A stretch of DNA of 37,224 bases from Nitrososphaerales archaeon (GCA_023269855.1 JAGDWP010000047.1:1-37224); one strand, 5' to 3'; positions 2,583-36,911 are shown, counted from the stretch's first letter. Numbers and translations are program-made. The notes: a model not told the origin generated them from the sequence alone.

Positions 2583-2960
2583 TTATTCTCTGAGTAAGTC
2601 TGAAAGCGACTTATACTCACCATGTTTATAGAATCTAATCCTAGTCTCAAGATGTATATGGAGGCCCAGGTTTTCAAATAATCTTAAAAGATCAGCTCCG
2701 GAAATCTTCTCCGTTAGCTTCCCCTCAATTATCTTCTGAGCAATTAATACAACGATTTTCTTTGTAATGTCTGGGTATTCTCTCATAGCCGCTTCAAGAA
2801 CTTCTTCTCCTCTATCAATTAGGTTCTCTTTAAAGATTCTAAGATACTTTTCAAATTCAACTTCTTCTTTAGGATGCTTAGTATCCTGAGTAATCGTGGA
2901 GGAAAGCATCTGCTTCATCTTCTTTAATCTTAGAAGCTTTAACTCAATGTTCTCGTCCAT
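2583..2960 (-). CDS. PDCD5/TFAR19-related DNA-binding protein (divergent)
   Basis: N-terminal 'ELKLLRLKKMKQMLSS', central helical 'VLEAAMREYPDITKKIVVLIAQKIIEGKLTEKISGADLLRLFENLG' pattern resembles the PDCD5 core; weak match by eye. Confidence 0.45.
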   Translation of the reverse strand: MDENIELKLLRLKKMKQMLSSTITQDTKHPKEEVEFEKYLRIFKENLIDRGEEVLEAAMREYPDITKKIVVLIAQKIIEGKLTEKISGADLLRLFENLGLHIHLETRIRFYKHGEYKSLSDLLRE

Positions 2961-3090: not shown

Positions 3091-4578
3091 TCATTTTTTC
3101 GTTAAATTATCGAGGTCGTACTCCTTATCTTTTTCCAAGTCTTTTTTGATCTGTTTTGTTTCAGATTCTCCGACCGCCTCAGACATAGTTTTATCTATTT
3201 TCTTCTCTAATGTTTTCCCTTTCTCATGAATTCTAGTTAACCACTCATCGTAGCCTCCCCACTTAAACGAACCATATAGTCCTTGAGCAATATCCATTAG
3301 GTCTCTTTGAGCTCCTCCAAGCCACATCTGTATAATCTTGTAATCACGATAGTATTTTTCAACATTCATCTCAAAAGAGTATCCATATGATCCCATCAGC
3401 TCCATGGCCTTATTTGTACAGAACATAGCTACTTCTCCAGCAAAAGATCTAGCTGAAGAAAACTTCGCAATCATATGTGGAGACCATGGTTCACCGTAGA
3501 CGTCTGGGCGGGACGCTTGCCAAGTCACTGATAGATAATACTGTCTAGCTAAATCGACCATTCTATACATTTGAGCAAGTATAGAAGCAAATAGTGATCT
3601 CTCCCTCACTGGTTTACCAGCAATCATTCTATCCTTCGTCCAATCAAGAGCTATCTCAAGAACTGCAGTAGCTATCCCTGTAAGTCGTGCTGCTCCAGCT
3701 AATCTACCTAAACCTATAACGTATCCATGTATAATCTTAGCACCATCCCCTGGCTTAGTATCTATCCTATACTTTGCTGGGACCTCAACGTTCTCATACC
3801 ATATGTCAACATTCTCATCTGTCATGCAGAAACCACATTTCATGTAGGGTTCTCCAAAGCTCATTCCTTTAGCATTATAGGGGACATAAACCATTCCAGC
3901 AGCTTCTTCACCTCTTGACGGATCCTCCGTAACCACGACCCAGTATCCTAGATGCCCAGCGAATATGTCTGGCCACTTCTCCCTCCATCTATCCCAGTAC
4001 TCTGGTTTAGCTGCGGGACCAGGCCATATCTTATGACCATTCAATACATAGGTGTCACTTCTCTTTTTCGCAATAACAACATTTAGAGTTCTGAACTCTA
4101 GTGATGGATCTTCGATATTAGCTCCCCCCTCAGGTTCAGTGATACATACACATGCAATATATGGAATCTTACCCGTCAATTTAGGAGCAAATTCTTCTAA
4201 GAGATCTTTCCTAACGTTTACACGATTATACATAAATGATACTATCCAGTGAATCTTACCTACTAGAGTGCTTAGTCCAGGATCTCCCCTAGATAATTCT
4301 TCATTAATCATCTGTCGAACTATCGGTGATAGACCAAGCCCCCCATACTCTGTTGGAAGATTAGCGATTGTTAAACCAAGCTTGTGGCACTTATAGTATA
4401 ATTCATACAATGTTTTGTGAGCGAGATCTTCATCTCTATGCCAGCCCCCTTCAAGATCCTGTCTCCTAGGAAAAACCTCTTTCTCAGTAAACTCTCTGAT
4501 ACTCTTAGCCATCAATAATTCTTCCTCACTACAGAAACATCTAGGATATTTATGCTCTGGTTCGAGAAGCAGATACAT
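3091..4578 (-). CDS. Acyl-CoA dehydrogenase superfamily flavoprotein
   Basis: 'ANLPTEYGGLGL', 'CVCITEPEGGANIEDPS', 'YVLNGHKIWPGP', 'AMELMGSYGYSFEMNVEKYYRDYKIIQMWLGGAQ'. Confidence 0.88.
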   Translation of the reverse strand: MYLLLEPEHKYPRCFCSEEELLMAKSIREFTEKEVFPRRQDLEGGWHRDEDLAHKTLYELYYKCHKLGLTIANLPTEYGGLGLSPIVRQMINEELSRGDPGLSTLVGKIHWIVSFMYNRVNVRKDLLEEFAPKLTGKIPYIACVCITEPEGGANIEDPSLEFRTLNVVIAKKRSDTYVLNGHKIWPGPAAKPEYWDRWREKWPDIFAGHLGYWVVVTEDPSRGEEAAGMVYVPYNAKGMSFGEPYMKCGFCMTDENVDIWYENVEVPAKYRIDTKPGDGAKIIHGYVIGLGRLAGAARLTGIATAVLEIALDWTKDRMIAGKPVRERSLFASILAQMYRMVDLARQYYLSVTWQASRPDVYGEPWSPHMIAKFSSARSFAGEVAMFCTNKAMELMGSYGYSFEMNVEKYYRDYKIIQMWLGGAQRDLMDIAQGLYGSFKWGGYDEWLTRIHEKGKTLEKKIDKTMSEAVGESETKQIKKDLEKDKEYDLDNLTKK

Positions 4579-4689: not shown

Positions 4690-5505
4690 ATGGGTGTAAA
4701 GAATATCTATCTACTGGATTTTGGTATTCTCTCTGGAGAACTTGGATGGTTTCTACCAGATCCAGCTGGATGGACTGAGACAGCAGTAGAGAAGAAACCT
4801 AAGATGCCAGTCTGGACTGACATACCTGTTACAGGCGCTGTGATAGAACATTCAGATGGTATAATATTAATGGATACGGGCAGTCACCCTGAAGCAAAGA
4901 AAGTTTGGGGACCTGTCTGGGAAGTATTTCCAATGACGAAGTTCACTGATGAGAATAGATTAGAGAATCAGTTAAAGTTGATTGGGCTTAAACCTGAAGA
5001 TATACACTACGTAGTATTCACGCATCTACATCTAGACCATGCAGGTCAAGCATACCACTTCAAAGATCTCAATACACCGTTGATTGCACATAAGAAGGAA
5101 TTAATGTGGGCTACATACCTGATGTATCTAGGGAAGACGGGTGCATATCAGCCCGTGGACTTGGAAGCGCTGAAAGGAGGCTCATGGTTTACATTCGATG
5201 GAGAAACATTTGAACTTCTCCCAGGAGTAGACTTAATGTTTGTTGGGGGTCACACACCTGGAAGCATAATAATTAAAGTTACAACAGAAGCTGGAAACAA
5301 CTACTTATTTACAGGAGACTTCATCCACCTACCTGAAGAATTGGAAAGGGAGTCTAAAGGTTGGCTACTTGGAGACGTAGATGAATATATTACTGGTTTA
5401 AGAAAGATAAAGCTGCTAGCGAGGAGACCGAGAACGAATTTAGTGATAAGCCACGATCCAAAACTTTGGGAGAAATATCCTAAAGCTCCTAAAGCATTAA
5501 AGTAA
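4690..5505 (+). CDS. Metallo-beta-lactamase-fold lactonase-like hydrolase (AttM/AiiA-like)
   Basis: HxHxDH motif 'FTHLHLDHAGQ', 'ILMDTGSHPE', 'VGGHTPGSIIIKV', 'LFTGDF', 'ISHDP'. Confidence 0.85.
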   Translation: MGVKNIYLLDFGILSGELGWFLPDPAGWTETAVEKKPKMPVWTDIPVTGAVIEHSDGIILMDTGSHPEAKKVWGPVWEVFPMTKFTDENRLENQLKLIGLKPEDIHYVVFTHLHLDHAGQAYHFKDLNTPLIAHKKELMWATYLMYLGKTGAYQPVDLEALKGGSWFTFDGETFELLPGVDLMFVGGHTPGSIIIKVTTEAGNNYLFTGDFIHLPEELERESKGWLLGDVDEYITGLRKIKLLARRPRTNLVISHDPKLWEKYPKAPKALK

Positions 5506-5536
5506 AACTTCCTCAAAGACGCTGAGGGAGCCCAAT

Positions 5537-6802
5537 ATGTCGCAGTTCGAATACATTTCTCCAAATGATACTGTATTTACTGTTAGGAATGTCCAAGTAA
5601 AGTTCGGGGAAGGGGTCAGCTCAGAAGTAGGATATGAAGCGGTAAGGCTAGGAATCAAGAAGGCCCTAATAGTTACGGATAAGAACATAAATGAGAATAC
5701 AAGATTCCCTTCAAGGATAAGAGAATACCTTGAAGGTGCAGGTGTCAGAGCCGATATATTTGATGGAACCCACATTGAACCAATAGATGTAGAAGTAGTT
5801 AAAGCGATCGAATTTGCTAAAGGAAAAGATTACGATGGATTCATCGCAGTCGGCGGTGGATCATCGATCGACACAGCTAAAATGATAAACCTTTACACTT
5901 CTTACCCTACTCCAGATTTTAAGGATTACATAGCTCCACCAACTGGGGGAGGCAAACCAGTCCCCGGCCCTCTTAAACCATTGATATGTATTCCAACTAC
6001 TGCGGGGACAGGAAGTGAGAATACTCCAGTAGCTATAGTCGACTTAACTAGAGAGAAATTGAAAGTTGGGATCTCTAATCCTTATCTTCTACCATCATTT
6101 GCTTTACTAGACCCTGTCCTCACTGTTACTCTTTCCCCATACTATACTGCTTCAACAGGCATAGATGCATTAATGCATTGCATTGAATGCTACACAGCTA
6201 TCCCCTACAATTCTAGACCTAGACCACCTTCTCCAGATAAGAGACCTGTCTACATTGGTTCAAACCCTGTTTCAGACATATTCGTTGAGAAAGCAATGGA
6301 GCTAATCGGTAAATACCTGCGTAAGGCATACTTTAACCCATACGATTTGGAAGCTAGGAGAAACATGCTTTTAGCAGCGCATCTAGGTGGAGCATTCGGA
6401 AATGCGGGAGTACATATCTCTCATGCCTTAGCTTATCCTATTGCAGGTAGAAGACATGAGCTCCCACACGGTATAACTGTGGCCGTAACTGGACCAGCAA
6501 TGCTGGAATTTCTTGAACCAATAGTCCCAGAAAAACTTGCTAAGATAGCTGAACTATTAGGAGAGAAAATAGAAGGATTAAAAGTGAGAGAAGCTGCAGC
6601 ACTCGCTAAAGAAGCATTGATAAAATTAATGAGAGATGTTAATCTACCTTCAGGTATAAGCGAATTCGGCTTCGATGAGAAAGATCTAAAAGAACTCTCA
6701 GAAGGAGCTATACTGCAGCAGAGACTTCTCGCAGTCAGTCCAAGACCAGTAAATATTCAAGAAATAATGGAAATTTATAGAAAGAGCCTACATAATTGGT
6801 AG
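5537..6802 (+). CDS. Iron-containing alcohol dehydrogenase, hydroxyacid-oxoacid transhydrogenase (HOT/ADHFE1)-like
   Basis: 'AVGGGSSIDTAKMINLY', 'PTTAGTGSENT', 'GIDALMHCIECYTAIPYNSRPRPPSPDKRPVYIGSNPVSDIF', 'GNAGVHISHALAYPIAG'. The RPxYxGSNPxSD segment is characteristic of HOT-type members. Confidence 0.88.
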   Translation: MSQFEYISPNDTVFTVRNVQVKFGEGVSSEVGYEAVRLGIKKALIVTDKNINENTRFPSRIREYLEGAGVRADIFDGTHIEPIDVEVVKAIEFAKGKDYDGFIAVGGGSSIDTAKMINLYTSYPTPDFKDYIAPPTGGGKPVPGPLKPLICIPTTAGTGSENTPVAIVDLTREKLKVGISNPYLLPSFALLDPVLTVTLSPYYTASTGIDALMHCIECYTAIPYNSRPRPPSPDKRPVYIGSNPVSDIFVEKAMELIGKYLRKAYFNPYDLEARRNMLLAAHLGGAFGNAGVHISHALAYPIAGRRHELPHGITVAVTGPAMLEFLEPIVPEKLAKIAELLGEKIEGLKVREAAALAKEALIKLMRDVNLPSGISEFGFDEKDLKELSEGAILQQRLLAVSPRPVNIQEIMEIYRKSLHNW

Positions 6803-6890
6803 AGTTCTCACCAATCATTAAACTTCCCAAATTTTTTAGTTTACTTAGAAATAAATAATAGTTCTCGTATTAGTCTGTACGAGGGGATAG

Positions 6891-8294
6891 ATGACGAGTT
6901 ACTTTAGCAGGATAACTGGTAGAGATGTGGAATTCTTTGAGAAGCTTCTTGGTGGAAAAAATGTATCTATCGAGGAAGAGGAATTAGTTGCTAATGCTGT
7001 TGATGCTTATCCGGGAGGTTTCTATAAGCCTGAAATAGTTTTGTGGCCGACTTCATCTGAAGAAGTCTCTGAGATACTTAAGTACTCTTATGAGAAGAGG
7101 ATACCTGTTTATCCGAAGGGTGGTAGTACAGGTTTAACAGGCACTGTTCCAATCTATGGCGGAGTACTATTAAGCTTAACAAAGATGAATAAGATAGTCA
7201 ATATATACGAAGAAGATATGCAGGTCACTGTTCAACCGGGAATAATCTATGATAGATTAAATAAAGAACTTGAAAAGTATGGGCTCTTCTTTCCTCCAGA
7301 CCCCTCAAGTGGTTCATGGTGTACAATCGGAGGCATGGTAGCGTCAAACTCCTCTGGCTTAAAAGCAGTAAAGTATGGAACGACTAGAGAATACGTTCTG
7401 GGCTTAGAAGTAGTATTGCCAGAAGGTAGAATTATAAGGCTTGGAACAAGAACATTCAAGTATTCGACTGGATTCGATCTCTTAAAAATGATGATAGGCT
7501 CGCAGGGAACTCTAGGAGTATTCACTGAAATAACTCTCCGGCTTAGAAATCTACCTGAATATTATCAGACGGCTTTAGCTTTCTTCCCATCTGTCGAGTC
7601 TGCAGTGAAGACGGTCTATCAGATCGTTAGGAGAGGTTTAGATGTAGCAGCAGTGGAATTCATGGATGAGAAGATGATGAAAGCAGTTGCAGAATATAGG
7701 AAAATAGATCTTCCAGAATCTAAAGCAATGCTATTGATTGAGACTCATGGAACAAGGTTAGCGGCTTCTGAGACAATGGAGAAATGCATCCGAATATTTG
7801 AAGAGAATAATGCAGTTGATATAAGAGTCGCTAGAGATGCAGAGGAAAGAGAGAGATTCTGGGCTGCTAGGAAAGGTGCATATCCTGCAACTCTTAGACT
7901 CGGTAAATACATGCTCATAAGCGATATTGTAGTGCCTCTCTCTAAACTATATGATGCTGTTCAGAAATCATATGAGCTAGGAGAAGAGTATGGTATTCAT
8001 TCATCTACTATCGGTCATTTCGGTGATGGAAACCTTCACGTACATTGGTCAGCTGGAAATAATAAAGACAAGATAGAAGACCTCCATAAAGCAAATGATA
8101 AGCTAACTAAGTGGACTATAGAGATAGGTGGCTCAATATCTGGAGAACATGGAATAGGTACTGAGAAGAAGAAATTTGTCAAGGAACAGTTTAGAGAAGC
8201 ATTTGACTTAATGCTCAAGATAAAGAAATCAATCGATCCTAGGTGTGTATTATCGCCAGGGGTAATCTTTGATTTAGAAGAAGTATTATCGTGA
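6891..8294 (+). CDS. FAD-binding oxidase, GlcD / D-2-hydroxyglutarate or D-lactate dehydrogenase-like
   Basis: FAD_binding_4 motif 'YPKGGSTGLTGTVPIYGGVLLSL', 'GGMVASNSSGLKAVKYGTTREYVLGLEVVLP', 'HFGDGNLHVHW', 'SGEHGIGTEKKKF'. Confidence 0.93.
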   Translation: MTSYFSRITGRDVEFFEKLLGGKNVSIEEEELVANAVDAYPGGFYKPEIVLWPTSSEEVSEILKYSYEKRIPVYPKGGSTGLTGTVPIYGGVLLSLTKMNKIVNIYEEDMQVTVQPGIIYDRLNKELEKYGLFFPPDPSSGSWCTIGGMVASNSSGLKAVKYGTTREYVLGLEVVLPEGRIIRLGTRTFKYSTGFDLLKMMIGSQGTLGVFTEITLRLRNLPEYYQTALAFFPSVESAVKTVYQIVRRGLDVAAVEFMDEKMMKAVAEYRKIDLPESKAMLLIETHGTRLAASETMEKCIRIFEENNAVDIRVARDAEERERFWAARKGAYPATLRLGKYMLISDIVVPLSKLYDAVQKSYELGEEYGIHSSTIGHFGDGNLHVHWSAGNNKDKIEDLHKANDKLTKWTIEIGGSISGEHGIGTEKKKFVKEQFREAFDLMLKIKKSIDPRCVLSPGVIFDLEEVLS

Positions 8295-8306
8295 ACGTGA
8301 CAAACA

Positions 8307-9569
8307 ATGACTGTAACGAAGCTTTTCGAAAGAGAACTAGGAGAATACTTTGAAGATATTTGGAAATGTATCCGATGCGGGTTCTGTAATAGCGTATGCC
8401 CGACATCCAATACTTCACAATCCTACTTGGCCTCCCTGACTTCGAGGGGCAGGATCATACTTCTTCAAGCATACTTTCAAGATCTTTTAAGCAAATCCTT
8501 AGATCATGAAAAAATACAGGAATTGATGGAATACTGTTTTGGATGTAGGAGATGCTTGGAAGTCTGTCCACCTGGAGTGAGAATTCCAAACTTAATCTGG
8601 AGAGTTAAGAAGCTTAATCGAAGACAGGGATTCTTGAAAAAGATAATCTTTACGAATTTTGGAAGAATGGAGAAGCTTTTCTCAAACTTTCCAAGCTTAT
8701 CCAATTTATTTCTACACTCATACATAGGCAAGACATTACTTGAAGCAACAATAGGGGTAAGTAAAAATATAGATTTTCCAAGTTTTAATCGGAGTCTAGA
8801 AAAATGGATTAATAACAAGAGAAAACCCGCCAACTATAGGGGGAGGCTTGCTTACTTCATAGATGTATTCACTAATTATCATGAGGTAGCTCTAGGCAGA
8901 GAAGTAGTTGAATTAGTTGAGAAATTAGGATACCTTGTTACTGCTCCTCCTCAGAAAGAAGCTGGAACACTTCTACTAGAAGAAGGCTTAATAGATGAAG
9001 CATACAAAGTAGCGAAAGAAAATGTGGAAAGCCTTTATGAATCTGTTAGGAATGGGGCGAAAATAATTACAAGCTCTCCGGCAGCATATCTAGCATTAAA
9101 GAAGGATTATCCTGAATTGTTAGGTGATACCAAGTCTAGAATCGTCTCAGAAAATACTCTAGACATAATTGAACTCTTATTAAAAGAATACGAGAACGGA
9201 GTCATAGACTTCGATAATGTTCTCGAAAATCAACTTGTATATCATCACAGTTGTTTTACCAAGGCTTCAGGGTTAACTAAGAATATTAAGCATATCCTAG
9301 AATCTTCAGGTTATAGATTGAAAGAGATAGATAAATGCTGTGGGATCGGGGGAATATGGGGCTTGAATAAGAAACACTATAATTTGTCTATTGAGATAGG
9401 TTCAAACTTGTTTAATGAATTGAATAGAATTAGTCTTCCAGTAGCTTCACAGAGTGAGACCTGTAGAATCCAGATAAAGAATAATACTCTGGTTGAGGTT
9501 AAGCACCCACTCTTATTTGTTAAGAACAGGTTAAAGATCGATAAGAGCAGACTATCTTCTTTTACGTAA
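8307..9569 (+). CDS. GlcF-like Fe-S / CCG-domain protein (partner of the GlcD-like flavoprotein)
   Basis: Two ferredoxin motifs 'CIRCGFCNSVCPTS' and 'CFGCRRCLEVCPPGV'; 'KCCGIGGIWG' CCG motif; 13 bp after the upstream gene. Confidence 0.93.
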   Translation: MTVTKLFERELGEYFEDIWKCIRCGFCNSVCPTSNTSQSYLASLTSRGRIILLQAYFQDLLSKSLDHEKIQELMEYCFGCRRCLEVCPPGVRIPNLIWRVKKLNRRQGFLKKIIFTNFGRMEKLFSNFPSLSNLFLHSYIGKTLLEATIGVSKNIDFPSFNRSLEKWINNKRKPANYRGRLAYFIDVFTNYHEVALGREVVELVEKLGYLVTAPPQKEAGTLLLEEGLIDEAYKVAKENVESLYESVRNGAKIITSSPAAYLALKKDYPELLGDTKSRIVSENTLDIIELLLKEYENGVIDFDNVLENQLVYHHSCFTKASGLTKNIKHILESSGYRLKEIDKCCGIGGIWGLNKKHYNLSIEIGSNLFNELNRISLPVASQSETCRIQIKNNTLVEVKHPLLFVKNRLKIDKSRLSSFT

Positions 9570-21610: not shown

Positions 21611-21706
<96 letters not shown>

Positions 21707-24159: not shown

Positions 24160-24732
24160 ATTTTGTGTGTAAGAGCAGGAGGAACTAGAGCGAAGCACTG
24201 GATGAAGCACATAGCTGTGGCACCTAAAGGTCTATTGAGATACTATGTATTAGAGTTACTATCAGAGGAATCTAGATCGGGTTCCGAATTAATGGATTTG
24301 ATAGAAGAGAGGAGTGGGGGTCTTTGGAGACCGAGCCCAGGCTCAATCTATCCTCTACTTGAATGGCTAAGGGATAGAGGGTATGTTAAGGAAGCTCAGA
24401 CTGGGGATATCAATGTGAGGAGATATTCTTTAACGGAAAAAGGTAGGAAGTTCCTTGAAGAGCAGAGAGAAATTAAAGCTTTCATGATGAGGACTTGGAG
24501 ACTATTTGCGCCCTACGTTCTTGACACATTTTTCTACAAAACTCTTAACGATAAACAGCATGAATTAATCCAGTCAGTAAGAATGTTTATGCAAACATTG
24601 TTCTCTCTCCAATCTAAGATATGGGAGGAGGATAATAAAATGTACATTGAAGAGGTGATAACAATAGTAAAGGATGCGTCTTCAAAACTTGAAGAATTAA
24701 AGATGAAAATGGAGAGTGGTTTAGATGGTTGA
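24139..24732 (+). CDS. PadR family transcriptional regulator (probable true start ATG 24202)
   Basis: 'GSELMDLIEERSGGLWRPSPGSIYPLLEWLRDRGYVKEAQTGDINVRRYSLTEKGRKFLEEQ' PadR winged helix. Overlaps the downstream ABC gene. Confidence 0.92.
   Translation: MMISKSIILCVRAGGTRAKHWMKHIAVAPKGLLRYYVLELLSEESRSGSELMDLIEERSGGLWRPSPGSIYPLLEWLRDRGYVKEAQTGDINVRRYSLTEKGRKFLEEQREIKAFMMRTWRLFAPYVLDTFFYKTLNDKQHELIQSVRMFMQTLFSLQSKIWEEDNKMYIEEVITIVKDASSKLEELKMKMESGLDG
24254..24643 (+). repeat. 390-bp perfect direct repeat, copy A (interior of the padR gene)
   Basis: Base-for-base identical to 35358-35747 (offset 11104), compared line by line. Confidence 0.97.
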
Positions 24733-34968: not shown

Positions 34969-35379
34969 ATGGAGTACATGCATTCCAGAAGACATATTAA
35001 AGAAGCTTTAAAATATTTTGAAAAATTAACGGATAGAGAGCATGCGATATTTGAGGCTGGGATATCTCTTGGAGCAATCTTTCATCAACTTGTCGGTATG
35101 CCTGTGAAGTTGGAAAAGATACGGGAACTTGAATCAGCATTGAGTAATGCGTTTTCTTCTCAACCTTTCAGAGTAAGAACTGAAATAAGAATTAATGCTG
35201 AAAGAATTAGAAGAGGTTTAACGGAGCCATATGATTATGGTGTGATTAATCCTGAGTCTCTCGATGTAGAAGTTGTTGTAGAGTATGGATATGCGAGAGT
35301 TAAAGCGAGATTGAAATGGATTGATGAATTGGGGTATCCTTTAATGTATGTTGAGGAAGTTACTATCAGAGGAATCTAG
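34969..35379 (+). CDS. mptD: Archaeal dihydroneopterin aldolase MptD-like (DUF372); 3' end lies inside the 390-bp repeat
   Basis: 'DREHAIFEAGISLGAIFHQLVGMPV' and 'YPLMYVEEVT'; the final codons and stop come from repeat sequence beginning at 35358. Confidence 0.72.
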   Translation: MEYMHSRRHIKEALKYFEKLTDREHAIFEAGISLGAIFHQLVGMPVKLEKIRELESALSNAFSSQPFRVRTEIRINAERIRRGLTEPYDYGVINPESLDVEVVVEYGYARVKARLKWIDELGYPLMYVEEVTIRGI

Positions 35380-36004
35380 ATCGGGTTCCGAATTAATGGA
35401 TTTGATAGAAGAGAGGAGTGGGGGTCTTTGGAGACCGAGCCCAGGCTCAATCTATCCTCTACTTGAATGGCTAAGGGATAGAGGGTATGTTAAGGAAGCT
35501 CAGACTGGGGATATCAATGTGAGGAGATATTCTTTAACGGAAAAAGGTAGGAAGTTCCTTGAAGAGCAGAGAGAAATTAAAGCTTTCATGATGAGGACTT
35601 GGAGACTATTTGCGCCCTACGTTCTTGACACATTTTTCTACAAAACTCTTAACGATAAACAGCATGAATTAATCCAGTCAGTAAGAATGTTTATGCAAAC
35701 ATTGTTCTCTCTCCAATCTAAGATATGGGAGGAGGATAATAAAATGTGTATCCTTATAATGACTATTGGTGGAGCTATTGCAGGTCTTAAAGCAATAGGC
35801 GATCTTACATATCGGGGTATAATATTGGGGTTGGTCTGCCTCCTAAATCCGATAGCCGCTATCCCAACCTCAATCTTCATAGGCTCAATAATAGTAGGTG
35901 CAACAGTTCTGGTTAGAAGGCTTCGCTTACCCTTCGGACTCGACGTACTCTTTCTAGGGATTGTATCTATAACATTCGCCACTTTCCAATTCTTCTACCT
36001 GTAG
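35348..36004 (+). pseudogene. Chimeric ORF: N-truncated PadR fused to the C-terminal tail of an ABC sugar/nucleoside permease
   Basis: The PadR part is identical to the 24139 gene. After 35747 the frame reads 'GGAIAGLKAIGDLTYRGIILGLVCLLNPIAAIPTSIFIGSIIVGATVLVRRLRLPFGLDVLFLGIVSITFATFQFFYL', typical of BMP-family permease tails. Confidence 0.75.
35358..35747 (+). repeat. 390-bp perfect direct repeat, copy B
   Basis: Identical to 24254-24643; both flanks diverge abruptly. Confidence 0.97.
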
Positions 36005-36097: not shown

Positions 36098-36911
36098 TTA
36101 GAGGGCTTTCATTAGTCTCTCCTTCTTCCTTCTAATAGTGAAACCAACGAGTTCAGCGAACCTCCGCCTAGAATTTGCTCGAATATAGAGATAATATTCA
36201 TCTTTCTTTGTATAGTATAATTTTTCCTATCTTTTTTCTATCGTAGATCGGTGTCCCCTCCTTTGTTCCTAGATGTGGTCCTGTTACATCTATATTTAAC
36301 TTCAATAATAGTTCCCTAACATAGTTGAGAAGTCTTAGATCTGTATTGTAAACATATATCGCCCCATTCTTTTCTACGCATCCTTCGCTATCGAAGAATG
36401 CTCTGAGAAACGCTGTCATAGTCTCTACACTATATTCAATATATGGTCTTAGTTTCTCAATGTCTAACGGCTTCTTCAATAATTCACATAATGTTTTCGA
36501 GCATCCTTCAACAACATAGAGTCCACCTCGCAGTTTTCCAATATATGGTTTAGACCCTGTAACGACTTCAAGGCATCTAGCAAACTCTAAAGCATAGTCA
36601 GCATCTTTGGATTTTAAACCAATTATATATCTATGCTCATGTTTTCTAACACATGTATATCCATCTCCTGCTCTTCCACCAATGATTGTTGCTAACTCTC
36701 TCGACGGCTTAATATCATCCAATGTTATCAATACACTTCGATAGGGATTATGGATATCTCTTAACCAGTAACTTATATGTGATATCGATAACCTCTCATT
36801 ATACTTCTCTTCAATTATCTTTATTATCTGGCTGTATGATAGTCCAAGGTTTCTAAGTCTATATACCTCATCGTATAATTTCATTCTTAGTTCTAGCGGT
36901 CTAAGCTTCAT
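36098..36911 (-). pseudogene. LAGLIDADG homing endonuclease with N-terminal HTH, frameshifted near its 3' end
   Basis: 'SYSQIIKIIEEKYNERLSISHISYWLRDIHNPY', 'ATIIGGRAGDGY', 'AFLRAFFDSEGCVEKNGAIYVYNTDLRLLNYVRELLLKLNIDVTGPHLGTKEGTPIYDRKKIGK', then +1 shift and 'YYTKKDEYYLYIRANSRRRFAELVGFTIRRKKERLMKAL*'. Confidence 0.85.

Follow-up and report, generated by a model that had tools for sequence, protein, structure and literature searches.

Do four tandem genes at one archaeal locus make up a single pathway, or do two separate units stand side by side there? The window, by which we mean the whole 37,224-nucleotide stretch analysed here, corresponds to contig C22 in a 96% complete Nitrososphaerales genome of 1.64 Mb. 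At 4690-9569 of this window, a sequence-only reading had seen a cycle in which a lactonase supplies 4-hydroxybutyrate (4HB), an iron ADH of the HOT type oxidises it with 2-oxoglutarate as acceptor, and a flavoprotein with an Fe-S partner recycles the D-2-hydroxyglutarate (D-2HG) so formed. All four ORFs are indeed found on the plus strand at these positions, and their Pfam families agree with that assignment. The locus and its left flank are organised as follows:

2583-2960, minus strand: 125-aa protein without a Pfam match, which neighbours GlcD in several other family and order genomes
3091-4578, minus strand: divergent ACAD-like protein P0005 (495 aa), divergent from the MBL gene and within the Acd-MBL-HOT block
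4690-5505, plus strand: MBL-fold lactonase-like protein P0001 (271 aa; Pfam Lactamase_B)
5537-6802, plus strand: HOT-like iron ADH P0002 (421 aa; Pfam Fe-ADH)
6891-8294, plus strand: GlcD-like FAD 2-hydroxyacid dehydrogenase P0003 (467 aa; Pfam FAD_binding_4 and FAD-oxidase_C)
8307-9569, plus strand: GlcF/GlpC-like Fe-S partner P0004 (420 aa; Pfam Fer4 and CCG)

The start of P0002 lies 31 bases past the MBL stop, and the four genes are in fact two juxtaposed units, MBL with ADH (4690-6802) and GlcD with GlcF (6891-9569). The families first assigned were roughly right, but none of the four proteins (P0001-P0004) reaches a named NCBIfam cut-off; therefore names such as AttM, GlcD and GlcF are only approximate. 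The fifth gene, the ACAD-like one on the minus strand, had been passed over.

The first unit is held together well beyond this genome. Among 398 genomes of the phylum (HOT-like ADH at E <= 1e-75, MBL at E <= 1e-30), the MBL occurs in 15, the HOT-like ADH in 24 and both in 13, a co-occurrence with Fisher p-values of 3e-16 when genomes are counted and 1e-9 when genera are, which serve as guides given that the genomes are related. The two genes adjoin in 11 genomes (G000-G003, G144, G228, G265, G273, G281, G328 and G388) and, further afield, in haloarchaea (Natrinema, Halorubrum, Natribaculum) and actinobacteria (Actinomycetospora, a Rubrobacter bin), so that the proposed lactonase-ADH linkage is real and spans phyla. 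Gene order differs between genomes, being co-directional or divergent, and thus the pairing is more than a single frozen copy. We found no description of an MBL-HOT pair in archaea in the open-licence literature. MBL homologues (about 34%) in the f4 genomes G031 and G033 were ruled out as further pairs, no HOT adjoining them. Conversely, the HOT-like ADH has no adjoining MBL in six g4 genomes, G108, G126, G161 and G285; because of these unaccompanied genes, the HOT-like ADH must have additional roles.

What kind of ADH is this? A tree of 94 iron ADHs puts P0002, its congeners and the ADHs of family and order genomes into a single clade (100/99) with 12 bacterial HOT homologues and human ADHFE1, and haloarchaeal relatives join this clade at 99/98; the human row, kept in the one tree built, is provisional and its placement only a lead. 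The ADH thus falls with HOT/ADHFE1, as the tree proposed for checking its identity was meant to decide, and far from the Fe-ADHs that adjoin MBL genes in Pseudomonas and Pelagibacter, no authentic BlcB being among the rows. The HOT subfamily (cd08190) is diagnosed by two insertions (PMC5125639), both of which are present in the 12 bacterial homologues. In our alignment, P0002 has the first (19 residues, human 256-274), one residue shorter, and the supposed HOT signature RPVYIGSNPVSD sits within it; the second (13 residues, human 342-354) is absent from P0002, its congeners, G026 and the haloarchaea, and the g4 ADHs have only a shorter stretch at that site. With one insertion and not the other, P0002 is therefore, by sequence, a sister to HOT on a branch shared with other archaea, and not a full member by the two-insertion definition. 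It shares the metal-binding pattern of HOT/ADHFE1, with D210, H214, H296 and H311 as ligands by that family pattern, and its mode of action may be the same. A 2016 review (PMC5125639) describes HOT proteins from non-animal organisms as having unknown activity.

Its partner has the fold of a lactonase. The predicted structure of P0001 (pLDDT 90.6) finds GcL, AiiA, AiiB and 4-pyridoxolactonase as its nearest PDB folds, and all metal ligands of the AHL lactonase family (HxHxDH, His, Asp, His) are present and invariant in the alignment, as H112, H114, D116, H117, H188, D210 and H255. However, structural-alignment identity to AiiA/AttM/GcL-type structures is only 24-27%, and P0001 lies below every curated cut-off, with 86-88 bits against 4-pyridoxolactonase, AhlS and AttM and 79-88 for the four best models, whose cut-offs are 325-475. 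The position of AiiA Tyr194, described as a key catalytic residue in a cited study, is His213 in P0001. A His is found here in the window MBL, in two congeners and in seven further archaeal partners of the same type, whereas haloarchaeal and bacterial partners have Tyr; the archaeal MBLs with an invariant His thus constitute, by sequence, a separate type. The MBL copy of congener G002 (L152, G002:C14, near 1601-2417) is broken near its start by a stop and a frameshift at an A run, reflecting either true decay or a sequencing error.

A lactonase next to an iron ADH recalls blcABC/attKLM of Agrobacterium, in which BlcC is a gamma-butyrolactonase, BlcB an Fe-ADH and BlcA an SSADH (PMC6402643). 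The archaeal MBL-HOT pair is a variant of this known pairing, with the same proposed chemistry, and the analogy first drawn from the window is strengthened by the aldehyde-oxidising neighbours of the pair in other genomes. Genes for AOR (aldehyde:ferredoxin oxidoreductase) adjoin the pair in G265, G281 and G273, all of one genus, and a divergent ALDH with its best match to SSADH models (439 bits, below cut-off) does so in G328; AOR adjoins HOT alone in G026, and HOT overlaps an ALDH gene in G299. Unlike Blc, the archaeal system uses an ADH of the HOT branch and an MBL of separate archaeal type, AOR or other ALDH families take the place of BlcA, and the window operon has no SSADH. Its absence from the window had been remarked upon and holds, with no aldehyde dehydrogenase in the window ORF lists on inspection and none of the genome's three PF00171 (ALDH) matches on C22. 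By sequence family, these three ALDHs and the nine AOR matches of the genome could act as semialdehyde oxidisers. For one of the three ALDHs the best match is MMSDH (425 of 448.5 bits); a 78% relative of this ALDH is the sole one found in congener G001.

To explain these results we propose a Blc-like lactone route run by the MBL-HOT pair, standing next to an older and separate GlcD/GlcF, an explanation towards which we lean, if only slightly. A small lactone, with gamma-butyrolactone the likeliest, would be opened by the MBL to give an omega-hydroxyacid (4HB). The HOT-like ADH would oxidise this acid to succinic semialdehyde, with NAD(P) as cofactor or with an oxoacid as acceptor in a transhydrogenation. 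An AOR or aldehyde dehydrogenase, whose gene adjoins the pair in some archaea and lies at other loci in the window genome, would then take the semialdehyde to the acid. GlcD/GlcF would be a 2-hydroxyacid dehydrogenase of older residence, with glycolate or D-lactate as its probable substrate and no dedication to HOT, and its electrons would pass through two [4Fe-4S] clusters. For both units, the substrates, the way the reaction runs and the electron acceptors are all inferred; a path from gamma-butyrolactone through 4HB to succinic semialdehyde seems the best candidate because of the Blc precedent and the known substrates of HOT. The lactonase and 4HB half of the original scheme would thus stand, in a generalised form. 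Against a Blc-like route are the scores of P0001, below the curated lactonase cut-offs, its want of a Tyr194 equivalent and the absence of a semialdehyde-oxidising gene in the window. A conserved partner for HOT genes in several archaeal and bacterial lineages yields a direct and testable substrate prediction and, if it is true, we envision that use of lactones or 4HB would be a wider archaeal trait.

The proposed route has a bolder form and several competitors. The bolder form is a distinct archaeal lactone module, in which a new, His-type MBL lactonase would work with a HOT-branch enzyme performing a cofactor-neutral transhydrogenation of 4HB (with pyruvate, glyoxylate or 2-oxoglutarate as acceptor) and with a ferredoxin-dependent aldehyde oxidoreductase; we consider it possible, though unlikely. 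Among the competitors, we think it improbable that the ADH acts reductively, on succinic semialdehyde or on aldehydes in general, with the MBL as a side partner. Several genomes do carry the HOT-like gene without MBL, and in G126 it comes after a gene pair with succinyl-CoA-ligase domains. However, oxidation agrees better with the close pairing to MBL and with the AOR/ALDH genes nearby, and the window genome has no match to an HpaB-type 4HB-CoA dehydratase (PF11794), on which ground that route was rejected here; therefore 4HB made in this genome would be without evident use by it. We also think it decidedly improbable that a different ester or lactone (a sugar lactone, pyridoxolactone or acyl-homoserine lactone) is the substrate of the MBL and the corresponding alcohol that of the ADH. 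Such a pairing would agree with the best MBL profiles, pyridoxolactonase, AhlS and AttM, all of them weak, and with the invariant His that sets this MBL apart, but the HOT relatives that have been studied use small omega-hydroxyacids.

Would the second unit close a D-2HG cycle? P0003, the sole PF02913 protein found in the window genome, has its best match in NCBIfam glcD (TIGR00387), at 413.7 against a cut-off of 567.9, and P0004 is closest to GlpC, at 241 against 278. P0004 has two CxxCxxCxxxCP motifs and a C-terminal CCG site with its cysteines, those of the N-terminal CCG site being lost. Compared with human D2HGDH, of the same family, P0003 keeps the equivalents of Arg386, His434, His441, Glu475 and His476 (C1-carboxylate, metal and base), but these catalytic and metal residues are common to GlcD and D-LDH too. 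The residues for the second, C5 carboxylate, Thr390, Lys401, Tyr432 and Asn443, are all replaced, by Tyr, Ile, Ile and His, and this state is found in all five congeners. Mutation of Lys401 abolished activity of the human enzyme, and such replacements are reported for GlcD and D-LDH, neither of which uses D-2HG (PMC7801405). P0003 and P0004 therefore resemble the GlcD/GlcF glycolate oxidase and the D-lactate dehydrogenases, in the kept catalytic residues, the replaced D-2HG carboxylate residues and the pairing of GlcD with an Fe-S gene; they differ in the sub-threshold glcD score, the missing N-terminal CCG cysteines and the His at Asn443, which is unusual for both the D2HGDH and GlcD/D-LDH classes. 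In G026 (L177, G026:C9, 3858-7043), two ETF-domain genes lie directly upstream of a GlcD-like gene, a set that resembles that of electron-bifurcating lactate dehydrogenase.

The distribution of GlcD points the same way. Orthologues (E <= 1e-110) are found in 20 of the 398 genomes, spread through the order, and 16 of the 20 are without HOT; by genus, GlcD and HOT are not associated. Synteny in relatives thus preserves the MBL-ADH pair and places GlcD/GlcF independently of HOT. A loop in which the ADH turns 4HB and 2-oxoglutarate into succinic semialdehyde and D-2HG, with GlcD/GlcF reoxidising the latter, is accordingly very unlikely in our estimation, although several observations speak for it. 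P0002 lies in the HOT clade, P0003 is alone in its family in this genome, and GlcD/GlcF is directly downstream (3') of HOT in three congeners, including the window genome. In the g4 genomes a different GlcD/GlcF pair (GlcD 38-40% identical) sits within a few genes of HOT, and a Thermoleophilia bin has HOT in divergent orientation to a GlcD-FeS fusion (best model YdiJ, 455 of 1350 bits). The g4 genes, and divergent GlcD-like genes directly next to HOT in G228 and G299, also count against strictly separate units and mean that some association of FAD oxidases with HOT exists. The divergent genes of G228 and G299 were rejected as D2HGDH, the Lys being absent and the Arg386 position not aligned as Arg. 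D-2HG recycling, which adjacency by itself had suggested, is thus unsupported because the four second-carboxylate residues are missing, GlcD is distributed independently of HOT and the locus has a history of its own, and the reading of the cluster is corrected in this respect.

That history can be followed at the left edge. In G006, G025, G036 and G041, the neighbour of GlcD is a relative of the 2583-2960 gene, and the latter therefore shows where the GlcD locus originally ended on the left. In the window, the Acd-MBL-HOT block lies between this gene and GlcD. Congener G002 has the GlcD site without the block and carries its MBL-HOT pair on a different contig, and in congener G004 GlcD/GlcF is present with MBL and HOT not found. 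The simplest reading is that the block was inserted into an older GlcD locus; alternatively, the block may have been lost from G002 and G004 and, in G002, relocated. In GC content the block is not set apart as foreign. In G007 (L041, G007:C4, 743-8065) and its g4 counterparts, a HOT-like ADH lies near an MtaA-type methyltransferase, a Zn-ADH, an alanine-dehydrogenase-like gene and the different GlcD/GlcF pair, with no MBL.

The ACAD-like gene of the block is divergent from MBL in three congeners, and its product P0005 has no Glu at the catalytic position, with MWLGG for IYEGT. A propionate-shunt-like module, with the ACAD-like protein and HOT acting on propionyl-CoA and 3-hydroxypropionate together with a methylmalonate/malonate semialdehyde dehydrogenase, is the least probable of these readings and highly improbable, since its pathway has no step for a lactonase, P0005 is without the usual catalytic Glu and the g4 ACAD-like gene is away from HOT and adjoins a transporter, even though the divergent gene pair and the MMSDH-like ALDH would suit it and the ADHFE1 orthologue HPHD-1 of C. 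elegans oxidises 3-hydroxypropionate, forming D-2HG (PMC10096224). The same MWLGG-type loss of Glu is seen in congener G001 and in three g4 orthologues, and the G007 orthologue is broken by several stops.

Elsewhere in the window, the ORF list shows by eye MCM, RFC and further replication genes, a set that points to an archaeon. A 390-base part of a PadR-type regulator gene is found at both 24254-24643 and 35358-35747 at 100% identity, either a true duplication or an assembly artefact. The tRNA gene at 21611-21706, with an anticodon ambiguous in ARAGORN (ccga), possibly contains an intron. Near the contig end, a LAGLIDADG-domain protein (36198-36911) has a similar protein, by eye, on contig C106 (L171:539-1432), and copies on two contigs suggest a mobile family.
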